A DNA stretch of 64,000 bases from Roseovarius confluentis (lineage in GTDB: Bacteria > Pseudomonadota > Alphaproteobacteria > Rhodobacterales > Rhodobacteraceae): positions 434,001 to 498,000 of the forward strand of contig NZ_PPFE01000002.1 of the NCBI RefSeq assembly GCF_002917925.1, given 5' to 3'. The notes beneath the pieces were generated by a model, which had not been told where the DNA came from, made no database searches, and worked only from the letters and a program-made list of their open reading frames with translations. This document shows positions 8,350-63,406 of the stretch, piece after piece; within the stretch, counting starts at the first letter, position 1; each line of letters begins with the position of its first letter. A program made the position numbers and the translations under genes.

Positions 8350-10359
8350 ATGATAATCGACCATCCGCTGCCGCAGACGATCCGCGAAATCGAGCATCTG
8401 GAAATCCCCATGCCGGACGGCACGCGGCTGGCGGCGCGGGTCTGGATGCCGGAGGGCGCCGAGGCAGCGCCGGTGCCGGCGATCCTCGAATTCATCCCCT
8501 ATCGCAAGAATGACAAGACGCTCGAGCGTGACCATGCCCGTGCGCCCTGGATGGCGGCGCAGGGCTATGCCTATGTGCGCGTCGACCTGCGTGGCACGGG
8601 CGAGTCCGAAGGGTTGATGACGGACGAATATACCGAAGAAGAGCTGCAGGACGGCTGCGACGTGATCGCGTGGATCGCCGCGCAGGACTGGTGCGATGGC
8701 GGCGTCGGGATCGTCGGCATTTCGTGGGGCGGGTTCAACGGCCTGCAGCTTGCCGCGCTGCGGCCCCCGGCGCTGAAGGCGGTGGTCACGATCTGTTCGA
8801 CCGACGACCGCTATGCCGATGACATCCACTACATGGGCGGCACGCTGCTGGGCGATCACCTGTCCTGGGCATCGGTGATGTTCGGGATCAATACCCTGCC
8901 GCCGGACCCTGCGCATGTGGGCGACCGCTGGCGCGGGATGTGGGAAGAGCGACTGGACGGGTCGGGCCTGTGGCTGGAGAACTGGATGCAGCACCAGACA
9001 CGGGACGCGTTCTGGAAGCATGGATCTGTGTGCGAGGATTTTTCGGATATCGAGGTGCCGGTCTATGCCGTCAGCGGCTGGGCCGACGGCTATTGCCGGG
9101 CGGTGTTCCGGCTGGTGGAGAACCTGAAGAGCCCGGTGAAGGGGCTGGTGGGCCCGTGGTCGCATCGCTATCCGCATCTGGGCGAGCCGGGCCCGGCCAT
9201 CGACTGGCTGACTGAAGAAGTGCGCTGGTGGGACCAGTGGATGAAGGGGCGGGACACGGGCATCGCGGATGAGCCGAAGCTGCGTGTGTTCCTGCAGGAT
9301 CACGCCCGGCCACAGACGCATTATGACACGCGGGAGGGCGTCTGGATCGACGAGCCGGCCTGGCCGTCGCCCAACGTGGAGCGCCGCGCGTTTTCGCTGA
9401 CTTCCGACGGGGGGCTTGGCGCGGAGGGGCCACAGGACGCGCTGGACATTTGCTCGCCGCTCTGGGTCGGGCGGCATGGCGGCAAATGGTGCTCTTACGG
9501 GCATCCCGGGGATCAGCCAGGCGACCAGCGGCGCGAGGATGCGGGCAGCCTGACGTTCCAGACGGCGCCCTTGACCGAGGATTGCCACATGGTCGGCGAT
9601 CCGGAGCTGACCCTGACGTTCGAGGTGGACAAACCGGTGGCGCAGGTGGCCCTGCGGTTGATGGACGTGGCCCCCGACGGTGCGGCGACACGGGTGAGCT
9701 ATGGCTTGCTGAACCTGACGCATCGCGACAGCCACGAGCATCCGGAAAACCTGGAACCCGGGCGCAAGTACACGGTGCGCGTGCCGATGAAGCATGTCGC
9801 GCAGACCTTCCGCGCGGGGCATCGTATCCGGCTGGGCGTTTCGACCAGTTATTTTCCCGTTGCCTGGCCCGCGCCGGAGCCGGTGACCCTGACCATGCTG
9901 ACGGGAGAGTGCGTGCTGGAACTGCCGATGCGCAAAGACGCGCCCGAGGCGGTCGATGCCTTCGGCGCGGCCCGATCGGCCGAATTGCTGGAGTTGGACG
10001 TGACACGTGCGCCGGGCGCGACCTGGCGCCTGGGCGAGGACGTCGACACCGGAATGCTGAGTATCGAGGTGACCGACGACGAGGGAGCGGCGACGATCCG
10101 GAGTCAGGGGTATTTCCATGCGGCCGCGGCCAAGGAACATTACACGATTTTGCCCGAAGATCCGACTTCGGCCACCGGCGAGGTGACGTGGACTCACGAG
10201 ATGGCGCGCGAGGATTGGAGCGTGAAAACCGTCACCCGGACACGAATGACCTGCACCGCCAGCGATTATCTGATCACGGCGCGGCTTGAAGCTTTCCTGA
10301 ACGGCGATTGCATCCGCGAGCTTGACTGGGACGTCCGGATTCCGCGCGACCATAATTGA
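8350..10359 (+). CDS. CocE/NonD family serine hydrolase (X-Pro dipeptidyl-peptidase S15 type)
   Basis: This 669-residue protein has an alpha/beta-hydrolase domain (about 1-290) with nucleophile elbow GISWGGFNG and presumed catalytic Ser125, a likely catalytic Asp in SGWADGYC, and a His in WSHRYPH. It is followed by a C-terminal beta-sandwich of the X-Pro dipeptidyl-peptidase type (PVAQVALRLMDVAPDGAATR region and RAGHRIRLGVSTSYFP). Relatives cleave Xaa-Pro dipeptides, cocaine or acyl-amides, so the substrate cannot be read from sequence. No signal peptide is seen, so it is likely cytoplasmic. It lies on the same strand as cphB-cphA-ATP-grasp, 151 bases downstream, which makes a peptide substrate related to that locus plausible but unproven. 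Confidence 0.88.
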   Translation: MIIDHPLPQTIREIEHLEIPMPDGTRLAARVWMPEGAEAAPVPAILEFIPYRKNDKTLERDHARAPWMAAQGYAYVRVDLRGTGESEGLMTDEYTEEELQDGCDVIAWIAAQDWCDGGVGIVGISWGGFNGLQLAALRPPALKAVVTICSTDDRYADDIHYMGGTLLGDHLSWASVMFGINTLPPDPAHVGDRWRGMWEERLDGSGLWLENWMQHQTRDAFWKHGSVCEDFSDIEVPVYAVSGWADGYCRAVFRLVENLKSPVKGLVGPWSHRYPHLGEPGPAIDWLTEEVRWWDQWMKGRDTGIADEPKLRVFLQDHARPQTHYDTREGVWIDEPAWPSPNVERRAFSLTSDGGLGAEGPQDALDICSPLWVGRHGGKWCSYGHPGDQPGDQRREDAGSLTFQTAPLTEDCHMVGDPELTLTFEVDKPVAQVALRLMDVAPDGAATRVSYGLLNLTHRDSHEHPENLEPGRKYTVRVPMKHVAQTFRAGHRIRLGVSTSYFPVAWPAPEPVTLTMLTGECVLELPMRKDAPEAVDAFGAARSAELLELDVTRAPGATWRLGEDVDTGMLSIEVTDDEGAATIRSQGYFHAAAAKEHYTILPEDPTSATGEVTWTHEMAREDWSVKTVTRTRMTCTASDYLITARLEAFLNGDCIRELDWDVRIPRDHN

Positions 10360-43008: not shown

Positions 43009-46000
43009 TCAGGCGACGCCACCCAGAAGGGCCGCATTGCCGCCTGCCGCCGTGGTGTCGACGCAAACAAGGCGTTCGCCCATGACGTGGCCGGTATCGG
43101 GCAGGCCGGTGATCAGCGGCAGGATCGGGCCATTGCGCTGGCTGAGCGCCGATGCATAGGCACGGGCCGTGTCGGCGTCACCCCACCAAAGCGCGCCGGA
43201 GAAGCCCGAGAGCGTGGTGAGGGCATCCGGCTCGACTTTGCCGGTGGTACGCAGGGCGCGGCCGCCCAGGGCCTCGACGGCCTTGGCCTGCGCCTCGGCC
43301 ATCTCCTTGGTCGGGCCGAGGCAGAGGAGCGGCGGGCGGGCGTGGGCCGTCAGGCGGTTGGATTCGCCGGTGGGGCCGGGCAGGACAATGGCCTCGACCG
43401 GGTCGGGCGTGTGGCCCTTGGCGGCCTTGTCGAGCGCGGATTGCACAGCCTTGGCGTCCATGTCTTTGTCCCAGGTGGCATCCGTGTGATCCGCCGGACG
43501 GGACGTGTAGCGCGCGAGGTAGTTGGGGCCGCCCGCCTTGGGGCCGGTGCCGGAAAGGCCTTCGCCGCCAAAGGGTTGGCTGCCGACGATGGCGCCGATC
43601 TGGTTGCGGTTGACGTAGATGTTGCCGGCGTGCACCGCCTCGGTCACGTGCTGGACGCGGTCGTCGATGCGGGTCATCAGGCCGAAGGTCAGGCCATAGC
43701 CGGTGCCGTTGATGGCGCCGATCACCTTGTCGAGGTTGCGCGACTTGAAGGTGGCCATGTGCAGGACGGGGCCGAAGATTTCGCGCTGCATGTCCTCGAT
43801 CCCGTTCACCTTGATCAGCGTGGGCGCGATGAAGCAGCCGGAATTGGGCGAGGGGATCTCGTGGATGAGGCGGCCGTCGGCGCGGGCCTGTTCGATATGG
43901 GCGGCGATGCCGTCGCGGGCCTCGGTGTCGATCACGGGGCCGACATCGGTCGAGAGTGACCACGGTTTGCCCATGGAAAGCGCGTCCATCGCGCCGGTGA
44001 GCATTTCGGTAAAGCCCTCGGCCACGTCCTCTTGTACGTAGAGGCAGCGCAGGGCGGAGCAGCGTTGGCCCGCCGACTGGAAAGCGGATTCGACGATCGC
44101 CTGCACGGCCTGTTCGGGCAGGGCGGTGGAATCGACGATCATGGCGTTGAGCCCGCCGGTTTCGGCGATGAGCGGCGCGCCGGGGGCGAGGTTCTTGGCC
44201 ATGGTGGCGCGGATCTTGAGCGCGGTTTCGGTCGAGCCGGTGAAGGCCACGCCGCCGATGCGGGCGTCAGACGTGAGCGCCGCGCCCACGTCGCCCGCGC
44301 CGGGCAGGAGTTGCACGGCGGTTTTCGGCACGCCGGCCTTGTGCATGAGCGAGATGGCGTAATGGGCGATCAGCGGAGTCTGCTCGGCCGGTTTGGCGAG
44401 CACGGCGTTGCCGGCAGCCAGGGCGGCGCTGATCTGGCCGGTGAAGATCGCCAGCGGGAAGTTCCACGGGCTGATGCAGGTGAAGGTGCCCACGGGCGGG
44501 TCCTGCGGCGCGTTGGCGGCGTAATAGCGCAGGAAGTCCACGGCCTCGCGCAGTTCGGCCACGGCGTCCATCGGGGTCTTGCCGGCCTCGCGGGCGAGGA
44601 TGGCGAAGATCTCGCCGAAGTTTTCCTCGTAGAGGTCGGCGGCGGCGTTGAGAATTTTCGCGCGTTCCTCGATAGAAGCGTCCCACGGCGTGGCGTCGGA
44701 AAGCGCGGCCTCGATGTCGGCCTTGCTGGCCGTGGCGACGGTGCCGGGGCTGTCGAACGGGTCGGCGGGGTTGGAGACCGTTTCGGGCTCTTCCGGGGCC
44801 GCTTTGCCCGCGATCAAGGGGGCTGCATCCCACGTGGCGTTGGCGAAGGGGCCGCGCGCGGCCTCGATCACGTCGAGCGTCGGCTGGTGCTTGAGGTCGA
44901 AGCCCTTGGAATTGGGGCGCTCCGGCAGGAAGAGTTCTGGCCCGGTGGGCAGTTGCGGGCGGTCGTCCTTGTACGCCTCGAACGGGTCGCGGGCGACGGT
45001 TTCGGGGGCCACATCCTCGTCCACGATCTGGTTGACGAAGCTGGAGTTGGCGCCGTTTTCCAGAAGGCGGCGCACCAGATAGGCCAGCAGGTCGCGGTGG
45101 GCGCCGACGGGGGCGTAGATGCGGCAGTTGGTGCCGTGGTCCTTCATGACGATGTTGTGCAGCGCCTCGCCCATGCCGTGCAGGCGCTGGAATTCGAAGG
45201 TCTCGGGGCCCTTGTCCATTTCCTTGGCCATGTCGAGGATGGCGGCCACGGTGTGCGCGTTATGCGTGGCGAATTGCGGGTAGATGTGATCGGTCATCGA
45301 CAGGAGCTTGCGCGCGTTGGCGATGTAGGAAATGTCGGTGGCCGGTTTGGAAGTGAAGACCGGAAAGCCGTCGATGCCTTCGACCTGGGCCTGCTTGATT
45401 TCGGTGTCCCAGTAGGCGCCTTTCACCAGGCGGACCATGATGCGGCGGTTCAGCTTTTGCGACAGGTCATGCAGGTAGTCGAGCACATGGGAGGCGCGTT
45501 GCCCGTACGCCTGGACCACGACTCCGAAACCGTCCCATCCGGCGAGCGATGGCTCGGAGAGCGTGGCCTCGATCACCTCGAGCGAGAGCGACAGGCGGTC
45601 GGCCTCTTCGGCGTCGATGTTGAGGCCCATGCGGGCGGATTTCGCGAGGATGGCGAGAGAGCGCAGGCGGGGCATCAGAACGTCCATGACCTGATGCTGT
45701 TGCGCGACCTCGTAGCGGGGGTGGAGCGCCGAAAGTTTGACCGAGATGCCGGGGTTCTTGCGGATTTCCTTGTGCGTGCAGGCGTTGGAAATGGCGCTGA
45801 TCGCGCGGGAATAGGCCAGGTGATAGCGGATGGCGTCGGCATCGGTGCGCGCGGCCTCGCCCAGCATGTCGTAGGAGTAGGTGTAGCCCTTCTTCTCCAT
45901 CTTCGCGGCGCGGTCCATGGCGGACTCGATGGTCTCGCCCAGCACGAACTGGCGGCCCATTTCGCGCATGGCGCGGCCGACGGCGGTGCGGATGACGGGC

Positions 46001-46455
46001 TCGCCCAGGCGGCGGATGGCGCCGCGCAGGTGGCCGACGGGGCCCGGATTGTCGTCCTTCAGCACCTTGCCGGTCAGCATCAGTGCCCAGGTCGAGGCGT
46101 TGACTAGCGGCGAGGTGGAATGGCCCATGTGCTTGCCCCAGTCCGACGGCGCGATCTTGTCCTCGATCAGGGCGTCGATCGTGTCGGCGTCGGGCACGCG
46201 CAGGAGCGCTTCGGCCAGGCACATCAGCGCGATGCCCTCGTCGGTGGACAGGCCGTATTCGGCGAGGAACACCTCCATCAGCCCCGGGTCCGACTGGTTG
46301 CGGATGCGGCGCACGAGGTCGGCGCCGGATTTCGAGATGCGCACGCGGTCCTCTTCCGTGAGCCCCGCCACCTCGGTCAGGCGGGCGACGGTTTCGGCCT
46401 CCTCGGCATAGGTGGTCTGGTCGATCACACGGCGCAGGTCGGAATCGTAGGGCAT
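43009..46455 (-). CDS. putA: Bifunctional proline dehydrogenase / glutamate semialdehyde dehydrogenase PutA
   Basis: The 1148-residue protein has a PRODH barrel (about 150-460) with motifs KGAYWDTEIKQAQ and FATHNAHTVAAI, and an aldehyde dehydrogenase domain (about 560-1010) with AETGGLNAM (Glu), FQSAGQRCSALRC (catalytic Cys) and the ending GxGPKAGGPNYLARY. It turns proline into glutamate at the membrane. There is no N-terminal ribbon-helix-helix, so it is not its own repressor; control likely comes from the divergent Lrp-type gene. A C-terminal extension of about 100 residues follows the dehydrogenase domain. Coding is intact. Confidence 0.96.
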   Translation of the reverse strand: MPYDSDLRRVIDQTTYAEEAETVARLTEVAGLTEEDRVRISKSGADLVRRIRNQSDPGLMEVFLAEYGLSTDEGIALMCLAEALLRVPDADTIDALIEDKIAPSDWGKHMGHSTSPLVNASTWALMLTGKVLKDDNPGPVGHLRGAIRRLGEPVIRTAVGRAMREMGRQFVLGETIESAMDRAAKMEKKGYTYSYDMLGEAARTDADAIRYHLAYSRAISAISNACTHKEIRKNPGISVKLSALHPRYEVAQQHQVMDVLMPRLRSLAILAKSARMGLNIDAEEADRLSLSLEVIEATLSEPSLAGWDGFGVVVQAYGQRASHVLDYLHDLSQKLNRRIMVRLVKGAYWDTEIKQAQVEGIDGFPVFTSKPATDISYIANARKLLSMTDHIYPQFATHNAHTVAAILDMAKEMDKGPETFEFQRLHGMGEALHNIVMKDHGTNCRIYAPVGAHRDLLAYLVRRLLENGANSSFVNQIVDEDVAPETVARDPFEAYKDDRPQLPTGPELFLPERPNSKGFDLKHQPTLDVIEAARGPFANATWDAAPLIAGKAAPEEPETVSNPADPFDSPGTVATASKADIEAALSDATPWDASIEERAKILNAAADLYEENFGEIFAILAREAGKTPMDAVAELREAVDFLRYYAANAPQDPPVGTFTCISPWNFPLAIFTGQISAALAAGNAVLAKPAEQTPLIAHYAISLMHKAGVPKTAVQLLPGAGDVGAALTSDARIGGVAFTGSTETALKIRATMAKNLAPGAPLIAETGGLNAMIVDSTALPEQAVQAIVESAFQSAGQRCSALRCLYVQEDVAEGFTEMLTGAMDALSMGKPWSLSTDVGPVIDTEARDGIAAHIEQARADGRLIHEIPSPNSGCFIAPTLIKVNGIEDMQREIFGPVLHMATFKSRNLDKVIGAINGTGYGLTFGLMTRIDDRVQHVTEAVHAGNIYVNRNQIGAIVGSQPFGGEGLSGTGPKAGGPNYLARYTSRPADHTDATWDKDMDAKAVQSALDKAAKGHTPDPVEAIVLPGPTGESNRLTAHARPPLLCLGPTKEMAEAQAKAVEALGGRALRTTGKVEPDALTTLSGFSGALWWGDADTARAYASALSQRNGPILPLITGLPDTGHVMGERLVCVDTTAAGGNAALLGGVA

Positions 46456-47681: not shown

Positions 47682-47765
47682 GCCCGCGTGGTGGAATGGT
47701 AGACACAGGAGACTTAAAATCTCCAGCCGCGAGGCGTCCCGGTTCGAGTCCGGGCGCGGGCACCA
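47682..47765 (+). tRNA. tRNA-Leu (UAA)
   Basis: The 84-nt sequence folds as a type II tRNA: acceptor GCCCGCG pairs with CGCGGGC, the anticodon loop CTTAAAA carries TAA, the long variable arm follows, and the T arm has GGTTCGAGTCC. CCA is encoded. An integrase gene lies 250 bases downstream, so the 3' end is the probable attachment site of the island. Confidence 0.96.
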
Positions 47766-48014
47766 CCTTGATGTTATTGAAAAAAGCACTTCGCTGCAAA
47801 TGCCGTCGCGGACCGGCTCTAGGGGGGTGTCACACACTGGTGTCACACATTCAGGTTCCGTTTCCGTTCCGTTCCGCCACTCGATTTTCGCGCAGCTCCA
47901 CGCGGATTTTGCCCCGGCATGGCCCGTTTTGCTTATCGGCGCGCTTCCCCCCCCCGCAGTTTATGCACGTCACCAAGGGGCGGAACTTGCGGTGTGCGAA
48001 CCAACGGTGTCGCA
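47766..48014. other. Putative attL region between tRNA-Leu and integrase
   Basis: This 249-base gap holds the likely left attachment site in the tRNA 3' end. A short direct repeat ggtgtcacacactggtgtcacaca lies at about 47826-47850 and could bind the integrase arm or excisionase. No gene is seen. Confidence 0.45.
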
Positions 48015-49059
48015 TCATGTCCTCCGTTCCTGCGCGGCTTTCGACAGCGCGCGCTTGCTGGCGCGCTTGCGGTAATAGGCCACCATCTGCGCGCTCTGGC
48101 CCGTCACGGCCTGTATCTCTGCGTCTGACGCGCCGGCTTCTGCCAGTTCGACAATCGACAGCTTGCGAAGGCCGTGAAGGCTGTATTTTTTCGCGTGCTC
48201 GCCCAAACTGTTGCGCCACTTGCGGAACGAGGCTTCGACTGCGCTATACCCCAGCGGCTCGGTCAGGTTCTTCGCCAGTACGTAGTGGCCCTGCCGGGGC
48301 AGCCCCTCGATGAAGGTGCGCAGAGAATCGGGGCAGTAAACCTCAAGCTCCTTATCGCCCTTCTCGTCATGCACAATCATCCACTCGCCCTGAAACTGGT
48401 CGCGGCGCATGGTGATGGCGGCATTCGGGCGCTGCCCGGTACCAAGGATGAGGCGCGCGGCGATCTGCAAACGCTCGGGCGCGGTGTCGAGATGGTTGAC
48501 CATCCACTCGGGCCACGGCTCGTATTCTCGGGCTGGCTTGTATGCGCTTCCCAGCTTTTTCGCCGGGTTCGCTCCCAGCGGCCAATCAAGCTCCGTGGCG
48601 GCGTAATTCCCAAAGAAGGGATATGACCTGTGCATACCCCTTTGCTTTACGTGGCGCCTCAGCTGCGATCGCTCCGACAGCGGCGCGGACGGCCTGCCGT
48701 GTGGTGTCGCGCATGTCCTTGCCGCCATTTTTTTCCAGCAGGGCTTCCATCGTGCGCCGGTAATTTCGTTTGGTCCCGTCAGACAGTTTTTGCTGGATCG
48801 TCGGGTCTTGGCGCCATGCTTCGATGCACGCGCGCCAAGTGTATTTGTTGGGTGTGGCCTGCGCTTCATGTTTGCCGGCTTGCGCCAGCCAGTAGAGACG
48901 ATCCAGCTCCTTTGGATCGTTTTTCCAATCTAAGCCTACTGAGCGGGTCCGCACCTTGCCATCTTCCGTCCAGGTGGTGCGATGGTAGGGACGCCAGCGG
49001 CCTTTCTGGAAGCGCCAGACAAGGCGTGGCTTTGTGATCCGTGGCTTGGACGGCTTCAT
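48015..49059 (-). pseudogene. Tyrosine-type integrase, frameshifted
   Basis: Two minus-strand frames form one integrase. The first (49059-48586) gives the N-terminal arm and core-binding domain (MKPSKPRITKPRLVWRFQKG onward); the second (to 48015) gives the catalytic domain with TGQRPNAAITMRRDQF (Arg), HGLRKLSIVELAEAG (HxxR) and AYYRKRA (Tyr). They overlap at about 48610-48640, where the reading must move +1 around ctt ctt tgg g; ISLLW in one frame continues as NYAATELDWPLGANPAKK in the other. It is either a disabled gene, a sequencing error, or a programmed shift. The start overlaps the AlpA-like stop by four bases (ATGA). Confidence 0.85.
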
Positions 49060-54369: not shown

Positions 54370-54591
54370 TCAGTCCCCATCCGCAACTTGTTGTTTGCGG
54401 CGATAGGCGCCCAGCAAGACCCGCGTGGTGCCGCCAAAGCGGACAACTGGCCAATCTCCGTCGCGCACACGGCGCCAAGCGGTGGACATGGAGACGTCTT
54501 CGAGAGCCGCGATTTCGCGCACACGCACGCGCGCACCATCTGGCAGCTCTTGGATTTCACGGAGACGTTCAGGGGAGACTTTTTTCAACAT
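54370..54591 (-). CDS. Small HTH DNA-binding protein
   Basis: The 73-residue protein MLKKVSPERLREIQELPDGARVRVREIAALEDVSMSTAWRRVRDGDWPVVRFGGTTRVLLGAYRRKQQ reads as an excisionase/MerR-type winged helix: the recognition helix MSTAWRRV followed by G-D-W-P-V-x-R-F and a basic tail. It is the first gene of the phage-type minus-strand run, so it may control that run. ATG 54591 is chosen over an upstream ATG in a cysteine-rich leader. Confidence 0.65.
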   Translation of the reverse strand: MLKKVSPERLREIQELPDGARVRVREIAALEDVSMSTAWRRVRDGDWPVVRFGGTTRVLLGAYRRKQQVADGD

Positions 54592-55061
54592 GATGGAGCT
54601 TCCATGCTTCGGCACCGTCAAAAATGACGGACGCCTTGGGTGGAAGCCGCACATCATGCGCAGCAAGTAGACACAAAATACAGTGTCGTGCGCTACCCCG
54701 CAACACCAAATGCGGTTGGCTTCGTAAGTTTCTATTCTGCGGTTTAATTCACCGACGCTCTGAGATCGTCCGCCTAAAGCTCAAGCAAAACGGGTATATG
54801 CACAGACCTACGATTTAATTTGAAACATCTCTTTCGTTACTTCGAAAAAATGAGATTTCTGTTGTTAGTTACTGGTTTTGTTTCGCTCTTAGGGCGTGCT
54901 AGCGTCTCGGGAAGTTTTATTGCTCGCAGCAATAGAGGCTTTGGGAAATAGCAACGCATGAGTGCAGAAACCAAATCGCTTAGATCGTTCGTACACTCGG
55001 TCGCTAGGCTTTTTCGTCCATACCTCCTCGCTTCAGGTGCTAGCGAGATTAAGGTCTACTC
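54592..55061. promoter_or_regulatory. Divergent promoter region of island operon and defence operon
   Basis: This 470-base AT-rich region lies between the small HTH gene and the methyltransferase. It must contain the promoters of both. The sequence agatttctgttgttagttactggttttg near 54850 and gctagcg repeats near 54900 and 55040 are noted, but no promoter is assigned with certainty. Confidence 0.4.
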
Positions 55062-57818
55062 ATGAACGCCGTTGAAATTGAAGAAGCGATTTCCGCGCTT
55101 GCCGAGGCGCCGTTTGACGCAGAAAAGTTCCCTTTTATCTTCCTCGAAGCCTTCGGCAACAAAGCCACCACCATCAAGCGGCTGCGAAGCGGCACTTCGA
55201 ACAAGTCCGACATCGGCGGCGTTCTCCAGACGGGCAATATCCACATCAAGGTCTGCGCCAAAGGAGAGGTCTCCGACACGATCCGCGAACTGCGGGAGAG
55301 CCCTGCAACCAAGAACAACCGCAATCGCGTCAAGTTCATCCTAGCCACGGACGGCGTCACTCTCGAAGCCGAGGACCTCGTGTCAGACGTTGCGCCAATC
55401 GTCACGCCCTTTGAAGACTTTCCCGAACATTTCGGCTTCTTCCTGCCACTGGCCGGCATCTCGACCGTCAAACAAATCCGCGAGAGTGCCTTCGACATCA
55501 AGGCAACGGGGCGGCTCAACCGGCTCTATGTTCAGCTCTTGAAAGACAATCCCGAGTGGGGCACCGCCGATCGCCGCCACGACATGAACCACTTCATGGC
55601 GCGGCTGATCTTCTGCTTCTTCGCCGAAGACACCGACATCTTTGAGAACGACGATCAATTCACCTCTACGGTCGAGCAGATGAGCGCACCGGACAGTTCG
55701 AACACCCATAAGGTGATCAGCTCGCTCTTCTTGGCCATGAACACTAAGAGGGCGCACCGCGCAGCCGCAGGGCTGCCCCGATGGGCCAGCGGTTTTCCCT
55801 ATGTGAATGGCGGGTTGTTTTCTGACAGCGTGGACGTGCCGCGCTTCTCCAAGATTGCGCGGTCCTACCTGCTTCACATCGGCAACCTTGACTGGAAGAA
55901 GATCAATCCTGACATCTTCGGCTCGATGATCCAGGCGGTCGCCGATGACGAGGAGCGAGGCGCCCTTGGGATGCACTACACGAGCGTCCCGAACATCCTA
56001 AAGGTATTGAATCCGCTCTTCCTCGATGACTTGCGCGAGCAGCTTGAGGAGGCGGGCGACAACGCGCGCAAGCTTCTTAATCTGCGCAACCGCATGGCCA
56101 AGATCAGGGTCTTTGATCCGGCCTGTGGCTCCGGCAACTTTCTCGTGATCGCCTACAAGGAGATGCGAGCGATCGAGGCCGAGATCAACAAGAAGCGCGG
56201 CGAGATTGACCGGCGCCCCGCGATCCCGCTGACGAATTTCCGTGGAATCGAGCTGCGTGACTTTTCGGCAGAGGTCGCGCGTCTCGCTCTGATCATCGCC
56301 GAGTATCAGTGCGACGTGCTTTATCGCGGGCAGAAGGAAGCCTTGCAGGACTTCCTTCCGCTCGACGCCATGAACTGGATCACCTGCGGCAACGCCTTGC
56401 GGCTCGACTGGCTGAGTATCTGCCCGCCAACCGGCATGGGAGTTAGGGTGCACGGCGATGACCTTTTTAACACGCCATTGGATCAGGCCGAGATAGACTT
56501 CGAGAATGAAGGCGGAGAAACCTATATTTGTGGGAATCCTCCGTACTTAGGGTCAAAATGGCAGTCGAAAGAACAGAAAGATGAACTAAAGGAAATTTTT
56601 GACAATAAGACGCGCTCCTGGAAATCTTTGGATTATGTTGCAGGATGGTTCATGAGAGCTGCTGAATATGGCCTGCACACACCTTCGGCCACCGCGTTCG
56701 TTTCTACAAACTCAATATGCCAAGGCGTACAGGTGCCTATATTATGGCCGCTAATATTTTCAACTGGCCATGAGATTAAATTCGCGCACACAAGCTTCAA
56801 GTGGTCCAACCTAGCAAGTCACAATGCTGGTGTTACCGTTGCGATAATATCTATCGCGCGTGAGTTCTCAGGGTCTCCTACTATTTTTTCTATTGTCGAA
56901 GGTGAAACAGTCGCGAAGTCCGTTTCAGATGTCTCGGCATATCTTGTTCCTGGTCGAGGAATAAATATTCAGCCATCGAGAAAGCAAATATCCGGCTGCG
57001 CCTATATGGACCTAGGTAACATGCCGAAAGACGGTGGGCATCTCTTGCTCTCTGCCTCCGAGGCCGACTGGCTTGCCGAAAACGACGAGGTTGCTCGAAA
57101 GTACATCTTGGACTTTGTTGGCTCACAGGAGTTCGTAAAAGGTATTGTCCGAAGCTGCCTTTGGATTGAGGATGAACAAGTCGCTGATGCAGTTAAGTCA
57201 CCCGAAATATCCAGAAGGCTGGATGGGGTCCGAAAAATGCGTCTGGACAGTGCGGCGGATTCTACACGCTCCTTTGCCGATCGGCCCCATAAATTTAAAC
57301 AAATTCAGGGAAGGGGTTTAGAAAGGACAATAGTAGTTCCCAAAGTAACTTCTGAAAAACGCCCTTACCTTCCTGTAGGGCTACTTTCTCAGCACACAAT
57401 TGTCTCAGACAATGCTTTCGCCATATACGATGAGCCAATTTGGAATATGGCGCTTATAGCATCGCGGGTGCATTGGGTTTGGGTGTCTACCGTTTGTGGA
57501 CAGCTTGAAACGCGAATCCGCTACTCGAACACCTTAGGGTGGCACGCTTTCCCGATTCCAAAACTCACTGAGAAAAATATGGATGACCTGACCCGCTGCG
57601 CCGAGGACATCCTTCTAGCGCGCGAGGCGCATTTCCCTGCGACCATTGCCGATCTCTACGACCCGGAGAAAATGCCTGACGATCTTCGCGTCTCGCATGA
57701 GCGCAACGACGAGGTGCTGGAACGCATCTACATTGGTCGTCGGTTCAAGAACGATACGGAACGCCTCGAAACGCTTTTCGAACTGTACACCAAGATGACT
57801 AAGAAGGGGGCGGCGTAG
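55062..57818 (+). CDS. MmeI-type class I DNA methyltransferase
   Basis: The 918-residue protein follows the MmeI layout. The N-terminal part (1-160) has FIFLEAFGNKATTIKRLRSG and FGFFLPLAG; a helical spacer spans about 160-330; the methylase core has SAM motif DPACGSGNF (352-360) and catalytic NPPY (492-495, adenine-N6 type); a target-recognition part runs from about 560 to 840; a C-terminal helical part follows. In MmeI the N-terminus is a nuclease with D-x9-E-x-K; here D50...H61-x-K63 lacks the Glu, so the nuclease is probably dead and the protein a modification enzyme. Bases 56460-57580 are clearly more AT-rich than the flanks, suggesting swapped specificity. It starts the defence operon. 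Confidence 0.88.
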   Translation: MNAVEIEEAISALAEAPFDAEKFPFIFLEAFGNKATTIKRLRSGTSNKSDIGGVLQTGNIHIKVCAKGEVSDTIRELRESPATKNNRNRVKFILATDGVTLEAEDLVSDVAPIVTPFEDFPEHFGFFLPLAGISTVKQIRESAFDIKATGRLNRLYVQLLKDNPEWGTADRRHDMNHFMARLIFCFFAEDTDIFENDDQFTSTVEQMSAPDSSNTHKVISSLFLAMNTKRAHRAAAGLPRWASGFPYVNGGLFSDSVDVPRFSKIARSYLLHIGNLDWKKINPDIFGSMIQAVADDEERGALGMHYTSVPNILKVLNPLFLDDLREQLEEAGDNARKLLNLRNRMAKIRVFDPACGSGNFLVIAYKEMRAIEAEINKKRGEIDRRPAIPLTNFRGIELRDFSAEVARLALIIAEYQCDVLYRGQKEALQDFLPLDAMNWITCGNALRLDWLSICPPTGMGVRVHGDDLFNTPLDQAEIDFENEGGETYICGNPPYLGSKWQSKEQKDELKEIFDNKTRSWKSLDYVAGWFMRAAEYGLHTPSATAFVSTNSICQGVQVPILWPLIFSTGHEIKFAHTSFKWSNLASHNAGVTVAIISIAREFSGSPTIFSIVEGETVAKSVSDVSAYLVPGRGINIQPSRKQISGCAYMDLGNMPKDGGHLLLSASEADWLAENDEVARKYILDFVGSQEFVKGIVRSCLWIEDEQVADAVKSPEISRRLDGVRKMRLDSAADSTRSFADRPHKFKQIQGRGLERTIVVPKVTSEKRPYLPVGLLSQHTIVSDNAFAIYDEPIWNMALIASRVHWVWVSTVCGQLETRIRYSNTLGWHAFPIPKLTEKNMDDLTRCAEDILLAREAHFPATIADLYDPEKMPDDLRVSHERNDEVLERIYIGRRFKNDTERLETLFELYTKMTKKGAA

Positions 57819-57819
57819 G

Positions 57820-58464
57820 ATGGTCAAACGGCGTGCTCACACTCGAACTAACAGCTACGGCACCACCTTCCAAGTTCGTGAACACGACTTCGCGCCGGGA
57901 GCCAGCGAGCACGAATACAAGCTTAGCTGGAAGCACGGGCAAGCACGGATCAACGGCTCTACAACCTATCAGATGCCATGTCCAAAATGCGCAAGACCGG
58001 TTTTTTACTATCGGAATGAGCATGGAAGTCGCGTCTTCTTCGACAAGCTTGGAATCCCTTGGCCTAAACATCCCTGCATGTTGGACAAAGACGCCAGTAC
58101 CCTTCCTTTGGCCTTTGCAGAGATGGTTCCAGTTTCGGAGTCGATGTTATGGGATTCAGTAAATACGCTTGATTTGAACTCGCACCACAACGCCAACCTA
58201 TTGGCAGAAAAGCTCGGGCGAGAAGACCCGCAGGTCGCTCGCCTTAGAGAAATGCGCAAGAAACGCAAGCAGGAGGAGGAAAAGCGCGCAAGAAAGGCGG
58301 ATAAACTTAAGAAGGCCGAGGAGAAACGCGAGGACAAACTGCGGAGAAACAAGGCAAAGTGGGAAGCTGAGGGAAAGCCGATGCGAAACGCTGATAGCAA
58401 AGTGCAAATTGTTCGGAAGAAGCCTGGCAGACTGCGACTGTCGCCAAGAAAGGGATCTGAATGA
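57820..58464 (+). CDS. Zinc-ribbon / coiled-coil protein of the defence operon
   Basis: The 214-residue protein has an N-terminal SYGTTFQVREHDFAPG segment and a zinc ribbon: MPCPKCARPVFYYRNEHGSRVFFDKLGIPWPKHPC, with CxxC and a later Cys/His. The C-terminal third (about 140-190) is a charged coiled coil of Lys/Glu/Arg, followed by a basic tail. The motif C-x2-C-PVFYY---GSRVFFD--G-PWP-H-C recurs in my memory of hypothetical proteins, but no function is known. It starts one base after the methylase stop and overlaps the helicase by four bases, so it is translated with them and is probably a structural or DNA-binding subunit. Confidence 0.7.
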   Translation: MVKRRAHTRTNSYGTTFQVREHDFAPGASEHEYKLSWKHGQARINGSTTYQMPCPKCARPVFYYRNEHGSRVFFDKLGIPWPKHPCMLDKDASTLPLAFAEMVPVSESMLWDSVNTLDLNSHHNANLLAEKLGREDPQVARLREMRKKRKQEEEKRARKADKLKKAEEKREDKLRRNKAKWEAEGKPMRNADSKVQIVRKKPGRLRLSPRKGSE

Positions 58465-60503
58465 AAAACGTTCCAGCCGTTTCAGTAACCTACGCGCAGA
58501 CCGGCAGCTCCACCCAATCGAATGAGCTTGGCATGCGCCCGATGCAAGAACGGGCGTATGAAAAGCGTGGTGAGCAGTATCTTCTGATCAAGTCACCGCC
58601 CGCTTCGGGCAAGAGCCGCGCGCTCATGTTCATCGGGCTGGACAAGCTCCACAATCAGGGGCTTCGCAAGGCGATCATCACGGTGCCGGAGAAGTCAATC
58701 GGATCGAGTTTCGCGGATGAGTCGCTGTCTAAGTTCGGATTCTGGGCCGACTGGCATGTCGAGGCGAAGTGGAACCTTTGCAACGCGCCGGGCTCCGAGC
58801 GAAGCAAAGCGGATTCTGTGGGGTCGTTTCTGAACAGTGCCGACCAAGTGCTGGTCTGCCCGCACGCGACCTTCCGCAACGCGGTCGAGAAGTTCGGCGT
58901 GGAGGCGTTCGACGACTGCCTGGTGGCCGTGGACGAGTTCCACCACGTCTCGGCCAACCCCGACAACAAGCTAGGCGCGCAGCTCGCCGAGCTGATCGCC
59001 CGCGACAAGGTGCATGTCGTGGCCATGACGGGATCGTATTTCCGGGGCGATGCTGAGCCCGTGCTTTTGCCCCATGACGAGGCGCGCTTCGAAACCGTCA
59101 CCTATACCTACTACGAGCAGCTCAACGGCTACACTTATTTGAAGACGCTCGACATCGGGTACTACTTCTACACCGGCGCCTATGCCGACGACATCTTGAA
59201 GGTCCTCGACCCGGACGAGAAAACGATCATCCACATCCCTTCCGTCAATTCGCGGGAGAGCACTAAGGACAAGATCAGGGAGGTCGAGCACATCATCGAG
59301 GAGCTCGGCGAGTGGCAGGGCACCGATCCCGCCACCGGCTTCCAGCTTGTGCAGCGGCCCGATGGCCGCGTGCTCCGCATCGCCGATCTGGTCGATGACG
59401 ATGCCAAGCGCGAGAGGGTCTCGACCGCGCTCAAGGACCCAACCCAGAAAGACAACCGCGATTATGTAGACATCATCATCGCCTTGGGCATGGCCAAGGA
59501 GGGCTTCGACTGGGTTTGGTGCGAGCATGCCTTGACGGTCGGCTACCGCGCCAGCCTAACCGAGATCGTGCAGATCATCGGCCGCGCCACCCGTGATGCA
59601 AAGGACAAGACCCGCGCCCGCTTCACTAACCTGATCGCCGAGCCCGACGCCTCAGAGGAATCCGTAACCGAGGCGGTGAACGACACGTTGAAGGCTATCG
59701 CTGCGAGCTTGCTCATGGAGCAGGTGCTCGCGCCTCGCTTCAACTTCACCCCGAAGGCCGTAGCTAGCGGACCGCAGGAGGGCTTCGACTATGGTGAAGG
59801 TGGCTATGATCCCGAGAAGTGCAATGTCGGCTTCAACGAGGAGTCGGGCCAGTTCCAGATCGAGATCAAGGGTCTGGCGGAGCCGAAGAGCAAAGAGGCC
59901 GAACGTATCTGCCAGCAAGATCTGAACGAGGTTATAGCCGCATTTGCCCAAGACAAGACCGCAGTTGAACGCGGCCTCTTCGATGAGGAGCTGGTGCCCG
60001 AGGAGCTAACGCAGGTCCGCATGGGTAAGATCATCAAGGACAAGTGGCCCACGCTCGACGAGGACGATCAGGAGGTTGTGCGCCAACACGCCATCGCTGC
60101 GCTCAACTTGACCCAGAAGGCCAAGGAAGTGGCCCTCGAGCATGACACTCAGGAAGAACAGGCCGCCAACACGGCCCTGATCGACGGCGTGCGCAAATTC
60201 GCCATGGACGTTCGCGAGCTCGACATTGACCTGATTGACAGGATAAATCCGTTTAGCGAAGCCTATGCGATCCTGGCCAAGACCATGAGCGAGGAGAGCC
60301 TCAAGCAGGTCGCCGCGGTCATCTCGGCCAAGAAAGTGCAGCTCACCCCCGAAGAGGCGCGCGATCTCGCGCGGCGGGCGGTGAAATTTAAGCAGGAGCG
60401 CGGGCGGCTTCCCTCAATTACATCGCCGGATGCGTGGGAAAAGAAGATGGCAGAAGGCGTTGCTTTCCTCGCCCGCATGAAGGCGGAGGCCGCCAATGCC
60501 TAA
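58461..60503 (+). CDS. SF2 (DEAD/DEAH-type) helicase/translocase of the defence operon
   Basis: The 680-residue protein shows all SF2 motifs: Walker A SPPASGKSRA (Lys51), motif II VDEFHH (158-162), motif III MTGSY (189-193), and motif VI EIVQIIGRATRDA (369-380). The region GMAKEGFDWVWCEHALTVGYRASLT is the helicase-C domain. The C-terminal third (about 400-680) is helical and unlike known restriction subunits. Type I and type III restriction enzymes and related systems use such motors to move along DNA before cutting. Overlaps: four bases with the upstream gene, eight with the downstream nuclease. Confidence 0.88.
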   Translation: MKNVPAVSVTYAQTGSSTQSNELGMRPMQERAYEKRGEQYLLIKSPPASGKSRALMFIGLDKLHNQGLRKAIITVPEKSIGSSFADESLSKFGFWADWHVEAKWNLCNAPGSERSKADSVGSFLNSADQVLVCPHATFRNAVEKFGVEAFDDCLVAVDEFHHVSANPDNKLGAQLAELIARDKVHVVAMTGSYFRGDAEPVLLPHDEARFETVTYTYYEQLNGYTYLKTLDIGYYFYTGAYADDILKVLDPDEKTIIHIPSVNSRESTKDKIREVEHIIEELGEWQGTDPATGFQLVQRPDGRVLRIADLVDDDAKRERVSTALKDPTQKDNRDYVDIIIALGMAKEGFDWVWCEHALTVGYRASLTEIVQIIGRATRDAKDKTRARFTNLIAEPDASEESVTEAVNDTLKAIAASLLMEQVLAPRFNFTPKAVASGPQEGFDYGEGGYDPEKCNVGFNEESGQFQIEIKGLAEPKSKEAERICQQDLNEVIAAFAQDKTAVERGLFDEELVPEELTQVRMGKIIKDKWPTLDEDDQEVVRQHAIAALNLTQKAKEVALEHDTQEEQAANTALIDGVRKFAMDVRELDIDLIDRINPFSEAYAILAKTMSEESLKQVAAVISAKKVQLTPEEARDLARRAVKFKQERGRLPSITSPDAWEKKMAEGVAFLARMKAEAANA

Positions 60504-61680
60504 GCAATTTACTGATGAAGATGATGCATTGCTCGCCGAGCTGGGCGTCGAGGTCGAAGAAAAGAAGGTGCCCACGCGCACCCCTCGTGAGGAACGGATA
60601 ATCGCTGGCTTTGAAGAGATACAGCGATTTGTGGAAGAGCATGGGCGATCCCCGCAGTATGGCGACAATAGGGACATCTTCGAGAGGCTTTACGCCATTC
60701 GCCTCGACCGCATCCGAGCCCAGGCTGATTGCCGAGAGCTGATCGCGCCGCTCGATCATCAAGGATTGCTAGATGGCGGCGAGGCCGCGATTTCCGATGA
60801 CGAAGAGCTCGACGATGATGCGTTGCTCGCCGAGCTCGGCATCGAAGGCTCACCGATAACCGAATTGAAGCACGTCCGGTCAAACGCGGAGAAGAAGGCT
60901 GCCGAAGAGATAGCGGGTCGGGATAAGTGCGAAGACTTCGAGACCTTTAAACCGCTTTTCGAGCAGGTGCAGAAGGAGCTCGACGCCGGCCTACGTGAGA
61001 CCCGCCCATTTGAGATGAAGGCCGAGATCGAAAAGGGTCGCTTCTTCATCGTTGGCGGTCAGAAAGCTTACGTTGCCGAAAAGGGCGAAACCACTCTTAC
61101 AGAGCAGGGCCGTACAGATGCGCGACTGCGGGTGATCTTCGACAATGGCACCGAGAGCAACATGCTCATGCGCTCATTGCAGCGAGCCTTGAACAAGAAT
61201 GAAGCGGGCAGGCGGATCACTGACCCGACCGCGGGTCCCTTATTCTCGGATCAGACCATCGAAGGAGATGAGGCCAGCGGCACGATCTACGTCCTGCGGA
61301 GCCAGTCCGATCATCCGATGGTAGCAGAACACCGAGACTTGGTTCACAAGATCGGAGTGACCAATATGTCGGTCGATAAGCGCATCGCCGGCGCTCATCT
61401 TCAAACGACCTTCCTCATGGCGAATGTCGAAGTCGTGGCCACCTATGAGCTCTACAACATCAACCGCACCAAGCTGGAAAACCTGATTCACCGCATCTTT
61501 GCCCCGGCGCGGCTAGAGATCGAGATCATGGATCGCTTCAGCAGGCCAGTTGTCCCGCGCGAGTGGTTTCTTGTGCCGCTCTTCGCGATCGACGAGGCCG
61601 TGGAGAAGATCAAGGACGGGACGATCTCGGGCTATGTCTACAATCCGAAGGAAGCAAAATTATCAAAAAGGGCAGTTTAA
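60496..61680 (+). CDS. GIY-YIG family nuclease of the defence operon
   Basis: The 394-residue protein has a C-terminal GIY-YIG domain of the T5orf172/MUG113 type: SGTIYVLRSQSD (264-267 = IYVL), HKIGVT (284-289), conserved Arg296 and NRTKLENLIHRIF with catalytic Glu328. The N-terminal part contains a duplicated acidic peptide, DDALLAELGVE (9-19) and DDALLAELGIE (about 107-117), each followed by a charged helix. The start overlaps the helicase by eight bases. In this setting it is the probable DNA-cutting subunit. Confidence 0.86.
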   Translation: MPKQFTDEDDALLAELGVEVEEKKVPTRTPREERIIAGFEEIQRFVEEHGRSPQYGDNRDIFERLYAIRLDRIRAQADCRELIAPLDHQGLLDGGEAAISDDEELDDDALLAELGIEGSPITELKHVRSNAEKKAAEEIAGRDKCEDFETFKPLFEQVQKELDAGLRETRPFEMKAEIEKGRFFIVGGQKAYVAEKGETTLTEQGRTDARLRVIFDNGTESNMLMRSLQRALNKNEAGRRITDPTAGPLFSDQTIEGDEASGTIYVLRSQSDHPMVAEHRDLVHKIGVTNMSVDKRIAGAHLQTTFLMANVEVVATYELYNINRTKLENLIHRIFAPARLEIEIMDRFSRPVVPREWFLVPLFAIDEAVEKIKDGTISGYVYNPKEAKLSKRAV

Positions 61681-61823: not shown

Positions 61824-61853
61824 CCGAGATCAATGCGGTCGAGGTCACATAGC

Positions 61854-62129
61854 GTGTCGTCTGAATCCAATGCGAGTAACCTTCCAACGCAGGATGAGCT
61901 TGAGCGGATTTTCGTGAACAATCCTGATTTTGTGCAGATCGAAAGCTATCTGAACCGCTTCAAACCGATCCGTGTCATGGGCACGAAACGGATGGAAATC
62001 AGGCACTCAACTATCCTAGCTTGGCTACTGAACCCGACAGACACCCATGGTCTACGGGGAGTAGCGGGTCTAGCCATTGAGCAGCTCATCGCGAAAGCTG
62101 GTAGAGATAGTTTGGAGTACTTGACGTGA
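61854..62129 (+). pseudogene. Truncated PD-(D/E)XK_4-like nuclease protein (N-terminal fragment)
   Basis: The 91-residue frame (GTG 61854; ATG 61833 is possible) reads IFVNNPDFVQIESYLNRFKPIRVMGTKRMEIRHSTILAWLLNPTDTHGL, which resembles the N-terminus of PDDEXK_4 family proteins (RHSxxLAWLLDPxxxHGL). That family usually reaches several hundred residues with catalytic Asp/Glu/Lys further on; here it ends at 62129. It overlaps the DarT-like gene by four bases (GTGA). Either a deletion removed the rest, or a short form is used. Confidence 0.6.
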
Positions 62130-63406
62130 AATGGCTGATAATTTTTGGTGGGATCATCGTTCTGTTGGCCTTAGTAGAAAAATTAAAGTTGTTTGGTGCT
62201 CCCCGTGATCCCAAGAGCTCGGACGACAGGCCACTTACTACCCGCGAAACGGCTGCTGGAATGGCCGCTGCGGGTGGTCATCTTCTCAGATCAGCGAATG
62301 AGGCAACGAACAAATTTTCTTCTGCGATACAACAGGCGGAAGAAATCAGTCAAAAGTTACGTGATGATGCCAAAGCTGACCTTGCGCATCTGGAAAGTCC
62401 TCTTGGTCAGAGCCTTTTATGTCGCAAAGCTTGGCTAAGTTCTTTGATGAAAGTCTCCAAGCATCGAATTGAACTCCAAGAAGAACTCGACGCTGATCCT
62501 GAATTTGCTAGAGAATTTGAGAAAGTCAGACAAGAGTTTAAGAAGGCCGCTAACGAGAAAAACGCTGGCAACCCTGCTCCAGTGAGTGCAAACGGCACCA
62601 GAGACACGTTAAGAGAATTGGGTTTTTGGGGCTTGCCGGCGGACCTTCGCATGATCTCAATTCCCTTTCTTTGCCATTTTACCCGTATTGAAAATCTTCC
62701 CTCTATACTTGAGCATGGGATTGTTCCGGTTGCTCTATGCCCTGAACACGGAATCAAACCGATAACTAACGACAATGCCCGCTTCGATAGAAGAACCCAA
62801 ACTTCTTCTCTTTCTGTAGGTCACCCAAATGCACGAATGCTGCGCAAATACCGCCAGATCGATCCTAATAGCGATTGGGTCGTACTTGCGGTCAATGTTG
62901 CAATAGCCCTAAGCCTTGACACCCTATTCTGCCCTCATAACGCAGCCGATGCGAGGGTCAGCCGACTTCCAGATGCTGACCTGCTTGCGAACAAAGCTTT
63001 TCAGCGAATGTTCGAGAGACCACAACATTACACAGGCAGGGCAGGACTTAATCAACCGACGGATGACCAAGCTGAGATTCTCATTCCTCGGGTCATCCCC
63101 CCATCAGAGATCCAGGGCGTTTTCTTTCTTACCGGGAACGGCTGGGCGGAACACGCACCAGCTTGCGGGAACCGTGCAATATTTGATCCTAAGCAGAGTG
63201 AGGCGATTTTCGGCAGGCGTGTCAACGGAAGCCTTAACCATAACGCGCGAATAATGCGGGGTTTCGATCGTTTTATTGAAGAGATTACAGAGGACATTGA
63301 GGGCGATCCAAGATTGGTGAAATCTTTGAACGAGCTAATCAGGGAGCAAACTCAGCGCGATAGCACACCCGGGCTCATACAGGCTTTAAGCTGGTACCGG
63401 CGTTGA
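62126..63406 (+). CDS. Membrane-anchored DarT-like ADP-ribosyltransferase
   Basis: The 426-residue protein starts at GTG 62126 with a membrane helix (MKWLIIFGGIIVLLALVEKL), then a helical linker (about 40-150), then a DarT-like domain from about 165: PFLCHFTRIENLPSILEHGIVP (184-200), SLSVGHPNARMLRKY, DWVVLAVNVAIAL, and LNQPTDDQAEILIPRVIPPSEIQGVFF with Glu317 as presumed catalytic Glu of QAEIL. DarT attaches ADP-ribose to thymidine in single-stranded DNA and is usually held by DarG, a macro-domain antitoxin. No DarG is in the window. The membrane anchor is unusual for DarT. Confidence 0.75.
   Translation: MKWLIIFGGIIVLLALVEKLKLFGAPRDPKSSDDRPLTTRETAAGMAAAGGHLLRSANEATNKFSSAIQQAEEISQKLRDDAKADLAHLESPLGQSLLCRKAWLSSLMKVSKHRIELQEELDADPEFAREFEKVRQEFKKAANEKNAGNPAPVSANGTRDTLRELGFWGLPADLRMISIPFLCHFTRIENLPSILEHGIVPVALCPEHGIKPITNDNARFDRRTQTSSLSVGHPNARMLRKYRQIDPNSDWVVLAVNVAIALSLDTLFCPHNAADARVSRLPDADLLANKAFQRMFERPQHYTGRAGLNQPTDDQAEILIPRVIPPSEIQGVFFLTGNGWAEHAPACGNRAIFDPKQSEAIFGRRVNGSLNHNARIMRGFDRFIEEITEDIEGDPRLVKSLNELIREQTQRDSTPGLIQALSWYRR

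Follow-up and report, generated by a model that had tools for sequence, protein, structure and literature searches.

The four genes between positions 55062 and 61680 of the stretch of Roseovarius confluentis DNA analysed here (the window: 64,000 nucleotides of contig NZ_PPFE01000002.1, positions 434,001 to 498,000) probably form a mobile restriction-modification operon of the DnmA-YeeB-YeeC kind. Its methylase, helicase and nuclease would make up a conserved core with two exchangeable parts: the target-recognition domain (TRD) of the methylase, and a slot for accessory genes between methylase and helicase. We give this reading a probability of about 0.65. The exchangeable slot is the new part; the kind of operon is already known. 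A search of titles and the starts of abstracts in the open-licence literature found no publication describing the slot, which is weak evidence of absence.

All four genes lie on the plus strand. The first (55062..57818) encodes a MmeI-family adenine DNA methylase of the DnmA/YeeA type with 918 amino acids (aa). Pfam recognised all five MmeI domains in it (MmeI_N, hel, Mtase, TRD and C), and it matched the PADLOC profile REase_MTase_IIG with 938 bits. Its TRD, approximately codons 601-800 (56862..57461), is poorly conserved and differs between near-identical operons. Next come the slot gene (57820..58464) for a zinc-ribbon-like protein of 214 aa with a CxxC...FD...WPxHxC motif and a charged C-terminal half, the gene (58461..60503) for a YeeB-type superfamily 2 (SF2) helicase or translocase of 680 aa with a C-terminal PMBR-like repeat, and the gene (60496..61680) for a YeeC-type GIY-YIG (T5orf172/MUG113) nuclease of 394 aa. 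In the list of open reading frames (ORFs) the three junctions measure +1, -4 and -8 bases, as the original prediction had stated. In the helicase the Pfam models DEAD and PMBR scored over cut-off, ResIII slightly under and Helicase_C far under it. The nuclease domain (residues 262-372 of 394) was found through MUG113 and T5orf172, presumably members of the GIY-YIG superfamily; the GIY-YIG model PF01541 itself failed to pick out the gene in the profile search. The zinc-ribbon protein matched nothing in PADLOC, NCBIfam or PHROGs; Pfam gave one match, far under cut-off. PADLOC, NCBIfam and PHROGs returned no named system, and PADLOC holds no strong profile for the helicase or nuclease of this cluster: it gave just weak PbeA and Cas3 matches for the former and, for the latter, a weak match to the candidate PDC-S57 (17.6 bits).

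Related operons were studied at 80 helicase loci, the best 80 of 572 confirmed candidates in species genomes. A tblastn search located the methylase in 75 of them, the nuclease in 79, and a homologue of the zinc-ribbon gene in a single locus. Four of the five loci lacking the methylase have 400 bases of contig or fewer before the helicase; the fifth, L009, is a true exception with a full flank and, judged by eye, an IS66-like transposase upstream. At L078 the contig stops at the helicase. Homologous protein clusters number at least 7999 for the helicase and at least 8000 for the nuclease. The same three-gene order, with 44-48% helicase identity, occurs on plasmids of Rhodococcus, Aeromonas, Pantoea, Raoultella, Vibrio and Ligilactobacillus. 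Near matches to helicase and nuclease are present in 98 of 5426 Escherichia coli genomes (in 90 with a query coverage of 80% or more), and the two E. coli regions inspected read methylase-helicase-nuclease with no slot gene. Occurrence is patchy: matches were found in 14 of 59 other genomes of the same genus, in two of these through fragments. Phage records contained two short pieces of the helicase, and viral contigs 24 loci. These findings support the view that methylase, motor and separate nuclease move as a set, both on plasmids and in islands, and that the set is shared by unrelated genomes. The cluster is thus common, yet the database records inspected name its genes by domain only. The original prediction had made its claim depend on the four genes co-occurring in other genomes; this holds for methylase, helicase and nuclease, but not for the zinc-ribbon gene.

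The S-adenosylmethionine (SAM) motif FDPACGSGNF and the NPPY motif, both of which had been noticed originally, are present in the window methylase and conserved among the homologues aligned. The nuclease motif of MmeI is absent. MmeI cuts with residues D70, E80 and K82 (PMC4833311), and a pattern search found no D-x9-E-x-K in the first 140 residues of the window methylase. Three of 76 methylase homologues contain the strict pattern, at residues 66, 66 and 103, and none has it at the conserved D50. This aspartate is invariant in the 64 full-length methylases aligned (of 75 found), where the positions +10 and +12 from it are occupied by isoleucine (I60, 63/64) and by I, L or M (62/64); HMMER left the first 80 profile positions unaligned to MmeI, so the register of the motif is one that we infer. 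In several distant methylase copies the region around D50 looks wholly different. Since the window methylase is devoid of this motif, the GIY-YIG protein would have to do the cutting and, judged from sequence, is most likely the nuclease of the operon.

Across the 80 helicases the residues of motifs I and III never differ, and in motifs II, V and VI the variation is confined to a few hydrophobic or small residues. In the nuclease Y265, R296 and E328, which we take to be the catalytic residues as in GIY-YIG enzymes, do not vary in any of the 77 full-length homologues (of 79 found). A motor with SF2 motifs and a separate GIY-YIG nuclease, as originally read from the letters, are therefore borne out, and the operon in the window is apparently intact. 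The nuclease domain begins at about residue 260 and is preceded by an SH3-like middle part (residues ~163-244) and by two DDxLLAELG motifs (residues 9-17 and 107-115). By pattern, 63 of the 77 homologues have two copies of this motif, 12 have one and two have none. The same pattern did not find it in seven nuclease copies from plasmids or E. coli, including one that is 62% identical (L083), and the motif is thus a feature of part of the nuclease family. With start codons that a script selected for agreement with the window protein, the genes of helicase and nuclease share 8 bases in 65 of 79 loci and 11-26 bases in another 13, which makes 78 overlapping pairs. Only at L013 do they lie apart (218 bases), and the helicase there holds masked residues. 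The near-constant overlap fits two chains that act together.

The same gene set has been described in Bacillus subtilis as dnmA(yeeA)-yeeB-yeeC (PMC9973331, PMC7261158), and with this order in print the operon cannot be called undescribed, as had been proposed. According to these papers, a Type I-like system was proposed for dnmA-yeeB-yeeC by Morgan et al. 2009, and homologues of YeeB and YeeC were assigned to defence islands by Makarova et al. 2011. PMC9973331 also tells of homologues in Vibrio crassostreae that protected against some phages, and mentions an uncharacterised family around dnmA that "could represent another member". Both operons consist of an MmeI-family methylase without nuclease motif, an SF2 helicase and a protein with a C-terminal T5orf172/GIY-YIG domain, in the same order, and a location close to defence and mobility genes is reported. 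The window differs in having an extra gene between methylase and helicase. Moreover, stretches of helicase and nuclease that are present in Vibrio are missing in B. subtilis (PMC9973331), whereas the window motifs that we checked are intact. The likeness rests on the published description and on domains rather than on the B. subtilis sequences; the features found were the type of methylase, a helicase downstream of it, a nuclease further downstream, and their one-strand order in many genomes.

Other known systems resemble the operon in parts. With MmeI (Type IIL, PDB 5hr4) the window methylase shares the five-domain layout, the gamma-class adenine methylase and a TRD of about 200 residues; unlike MmeI it has no D-x9-E-x-K, and its operon adds two enzymes. 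Type I systems house accessory genes such as PrrC, RhuM and Fic/Doc (PMC3710099, PMC12707154). The operons studied here likewise house toxin-like genes, with RhuM in 7 of 67 proteins of the slot scan, but they belong to the DnmA-YeeB-YeeC kind, and no HsdR, HsdM or HsdS was among the matches listed in the profile scans. For DISARM, the DrmMI profile reached 95 bits on the methylase against 938 for Type IIG, and no DrmA, DrmB or DrmC was among the matches listed for six proteins.

In the 75 loci with both flanking genes, the slot between methylase and helicase measures at most 63 bases in 23 (a 4-base overlap in 11 of them) and 360-6978 bases in 52. Its 74 ORFs, that of the window included, fall into 31 BLAST clusters; some of the small ones are probably no genes. 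A Pfam scan (E 0.001) covered 67 proteins: 65 slot ORFs, that of the window and one from L084. Among the matches listed were RhuM, SLFN_AlbA_2 and HATPase_c_4 (seven each), BrnT (three), CcdA, CcdB and HEPN (two each), YobI-ATPase, YhcG, YafQ, RelB, GmrSD_N and NucS_C (once each), and several helix-turn-helix (HTH) families. The PADLOC candidate sets PDC-S05 and PDC-S23 had seven slot members each among the matches listed. Single tests added FRG and DUF3800 at L131, a zeta toxin at L102 and a CoiA-like protein at L116, and, under cut-off, a T5orf172-like protein at L010 and PLD-like matches at L034; single profile tests of slot proteins in L005, L073 and L020 gave nothing useful. Well under half of the slot proteins bear such names, and many are nameless. 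The slot is a defined place in which accessory defence genes can be sought.

Both exchangeable parts appear to have turned over around a conserved core. TRD identity (residues 600-800) averages 38% and shows no relation to helicase identity (Spearman 0.01; 64 rows, window included), while the same comparison yields 0.50 for the methylase core and 0.60 for the nuclease; mean identity is 79% for the methylase core and 81% for the helicase. Among these rows are seven pairs whose helicases share 97% identity or more; their TRDs are 32-51% identical and their slot content is unlike in every case, one pair having one of two genes in common. DNA identity in 50-codon bins locates the divergent stretch in these pairs: 75-99% over methylase codons 1-450, 35-65% over codons 601-800, 55-99% over codons 801-918 and 77-99% over the helicase. 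From these alignments the simplest reading would be that two cassettes are replaced by recombination in conserved flanks. Occupancy of the slot was followed on a helicase tree of 81 sequences (quick method, 24 of 78 inner branches open), on which slot content was scored in 27 states for 76 rows and compared with 200 label shuffles. The state empty or filled changed 19 times against 19.8 times when shuffled (standard deviation (sd) 1.5), so that no inheritance of occupancy is visible to the shuffle test, and the kind of content tracks the tree to a small degree only. That the specificities of MmeI-family enzymes have diversified widely had been reported before (PMC3874165); the present comparison measures the extent of this uncoupling in the cluster.

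A probable course of events is the following. The methylase would read an asymmetric site by means of its TRD and methylate one strand, thereby marking the host DNA. Where this mark is missing, the ATP-driven helicase would be engaged by the methylase or by a complex bound at the site; the helicase would then move along the DNA and bring the tightly co-produced GIY-YIG protein to cut; a physical complex of these proteins is presumed, as is any function of the slot genes. Replacement of the TRD would alter the specificity, and the gap between methylase and helicase would take up accessory genes, many of them toxin, nuclease or defence-candidate genes and in the window the zinc-ribbon gene, probably by recombination between the conserved flanking genes.

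The original prediction had instead treated the four genes as one unit, which would make the zinc-ribbon protein an essential subunit. Its gene does overlap the helicase gene by 4 bases, and a relative with 37% identity occupies the same slot in Shimia thalassica (L051). This relative, however, is the only homologue in the 80 loci, and near-identical operons hold other genes or none in the slot. Resemblance over most of the length is limited to P0242 and P0243, with a query coverage of 94%, and to the protein from L051; the remaining database matches cover half of the length or less. Among 294 other genomes of the host's family, the helicase is present in 26 (in four by fragments or weak short matches only) and the zinc-ribbon domain in six, never at full length and with no core gene within 3.1 kb; in G318, domain and helicase lie on one contig, approximately 19 kb apart. 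In viral contigs 16 stretches fit the zinc-ribbon pattern and none was confirmed, and 35 plasmid records had partial matches, none over 80% of the query. For the family these findings already contradict an obligate four-gene system, which is thus very improbable, and the zinc-ribbon gene is cargo rather than core. Almost equally improbable, and in our judgement the least credible proposal, is that the methylase itself is a Type IIG/IIL cutter and the downstream genes are independent. Its PADLOC label is indeed Type IIG, but the window copy has no match to the N-terminal PD-(D/E)XK motif of such enzymes, that is, to the D-x9-E-x-K that MmeI needs (PMC4833311), and the pattern is confined to the three of 76 homologues mentioned above.

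Two further proposals draw on B. subtilis, where according to PMC9973331 the locus restricted neither transformation nor three phages. These negative tests speak for a relic, in which the methylase alone serves as an epigenetic or orphan enzyme and restriction by helicase and nuclease has been lost, a proposal already made for B. subtilis. We regard this as unlikely, since the motifs of helicase and nuclease are conserved across 80 and 77 homologues, respectively, and their junction is nearly constant. In addition, a regulatory methylase would hardly tolerate such unlike TRDs in near-identical operons: a TRD uncoupled from the helicase beside a conserved core is what diversifying restriction specificity predicts. 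Contrary to the relic view, our data argue that the family is selected to change its specificity. A BREX-like block guided by methylation, in which the helicase acts on unmarked phage DNA without cutting and the GIY-YIG protein has a minor or structural part, would agree with the weaker PglX and DrmMI matches of the methylase and with the report that avoidance of the B. subtilis site by phages was not seen (PMC9973331). Yet the PglX profiles scored far under the NCBIfam cut-offs, no PglZ, BrxC or other BREX part was among the matches listed for the six proteins, and the GIY-YIG Tyr, Arg and Glu are the same in 77 of 77 nucleases; such a block seems to us more improbable still than a relic.

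Several observations, besides the negative B. subtilis tests, weigh against a mobile restriction-modification operon with an exchangeable slot. No profile library searched names the helicase or the nuclease as part of a restriction system. The structure model of the helicase is poor (mean predicted local distance difference test (pLDDT) 62.8), and its class is for this reason unsettled by structure. Identity to the query is 78-93% in the 80 loci, which by their titles come mostly from Alphaproteobacteria. Slot content changed 43 times on the helicase tree against 51.3 times when shuffled (sd 1.1, minimum 49), fewer than in every one of the 200 shuffles, and is thus partly inherited; RhuM, for instance, sits in the slots of five related gammaproteobacterial loci. 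Among the 14 distant copies with a measurable gap (helicase at most 51% identical), 12 have an empty slot of at most 56 bases, the exceptions being L105 (431 bases) and L131 (2291 bases). Finally, no ORF of 60 aa was found in the 419-base slot of L044, and that of L066 contains a single ORF of 69 aa.

A more far-reaching interpretation, which we put forward tentatively and consider rather doubtful, is that the operons are two-cassette immune platforms, with a conserved core, an exchangeable TRD and a second-line slot guarded or triggered via the restriction complex. Slot products would then be held inactive by this complex or triggered by its failure, by analogy with PrrC and EcoprrI; in one type of cassette an AlbA_2/HATPase protein would control helicase and nuclease via repeats just before the helicase, and the zinc-ribbon gene would be rare cargo. 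In the seven AlbA_2 cassettes of the 80 loci, short motifs are repeated directly before the helicase. Tandem units of about 10 bases, recognised by eye, lie approximately at L055:9864-9920, L069:9905-9980, L076:9770-9860 and L080:9840-9895. Pairs of the TTGATCGGGTTTTGAT-type, 99 bases apart, occur in L024 (~9825-9950) and L059 (~2270-2395), and also in L098 and L099; a similar pair precedes the helicase in L081 (~2245-2370, by eye). That these repeats are operators is a guess. In L059 the slot contains a copy of the start of the helicase gene (104 bases, 94% identity), then the AlbA_2/HATPase gene, and after it comes the intact helicase. In G034 and G036, likewise, approximately the first 36 helicase residues are found a second time some 1.8 kb ahead of the intact gene, and the protein encoded next shares 95% identity with the AlbA_2 protein of L059. 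When the 5' end of the own helicase was sought in the 52 filled slots, L059 alone had a clear copy, with an 18-base match in L016; the 3' end of the own methylase gave matches of 14 and 22 bases only (L042 and L070). The duplication thus explains one type of cassette only.

The operon lies in a mobile island, as had been suspected. The left end of the element is marked by the 3' part of a tRNA-Leu gene and the next bases (47710..47800, plus strand), which are repeated at L088:794-886; the spacing of the repeats, from window position 47710 to L088:886, corresponds to an element of about 17.1 kb. Across it the G+C content drops from ~0.64-0.69 to 0.50-0.59, and inside it are an integrase ORF, a small terminase, an O-like replication protein and DnaB. 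A gene at 54370-54666 is AlpA-type by eye alone, with weak Pfam HTH matches and no PHROG match. Integrase, AlpA-type regulator, replication genes, small terminase and att repeats are features of phage satellites (PICI-like). The element may be a phage satellite or a reduced prophage with the operon as cargo.

Further observations concern the zinc-ribbon domain and the neighbouring genes. The database proteins P0241-P0356 have in common a small-protein domain, CPxC...NEHGSRVFFD.LGPPWPKHPC, kept from Alphaproteobacteria to Micromonospora; of the 116 database matches, the window protein counted, 103 have the CxxC...FD...WPxHxC motif. A Pfam scan of two members, P0273 and the window protein, gave no family over cut-off for the domain. 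In the integrase region (48015-49059, minus strand), a 284-aa ORF matches the later part of a PHROG profile only, and an overlapping ORF in another frame (48586-49059), with no PHROG match, may be the remainder; split over two frames, the gene looks broken or frameshifted. Downstream of the operon, the ORF at 61833-62129 (98 aa) corresponds to approximately the first 60 residues of the PADLOC PDC-S26 profiles, which span about 400 aa, has a weak match to Pfam PDDEXK_4 and is probably a truncated gene. It is followed by a gene (62126-63406) whose product of 426 aa has a hydrophobic N-terminus, by eye, and a domain like the ADP-ribosyltransferase DarT (Pfam DarT, 8e-17); this protein had no match in the 80 related loci. 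Outside the element, a 1148-aa ORF on the minus strand (43009-46455) strongly matches PHROG 15577, a family of unknown function.

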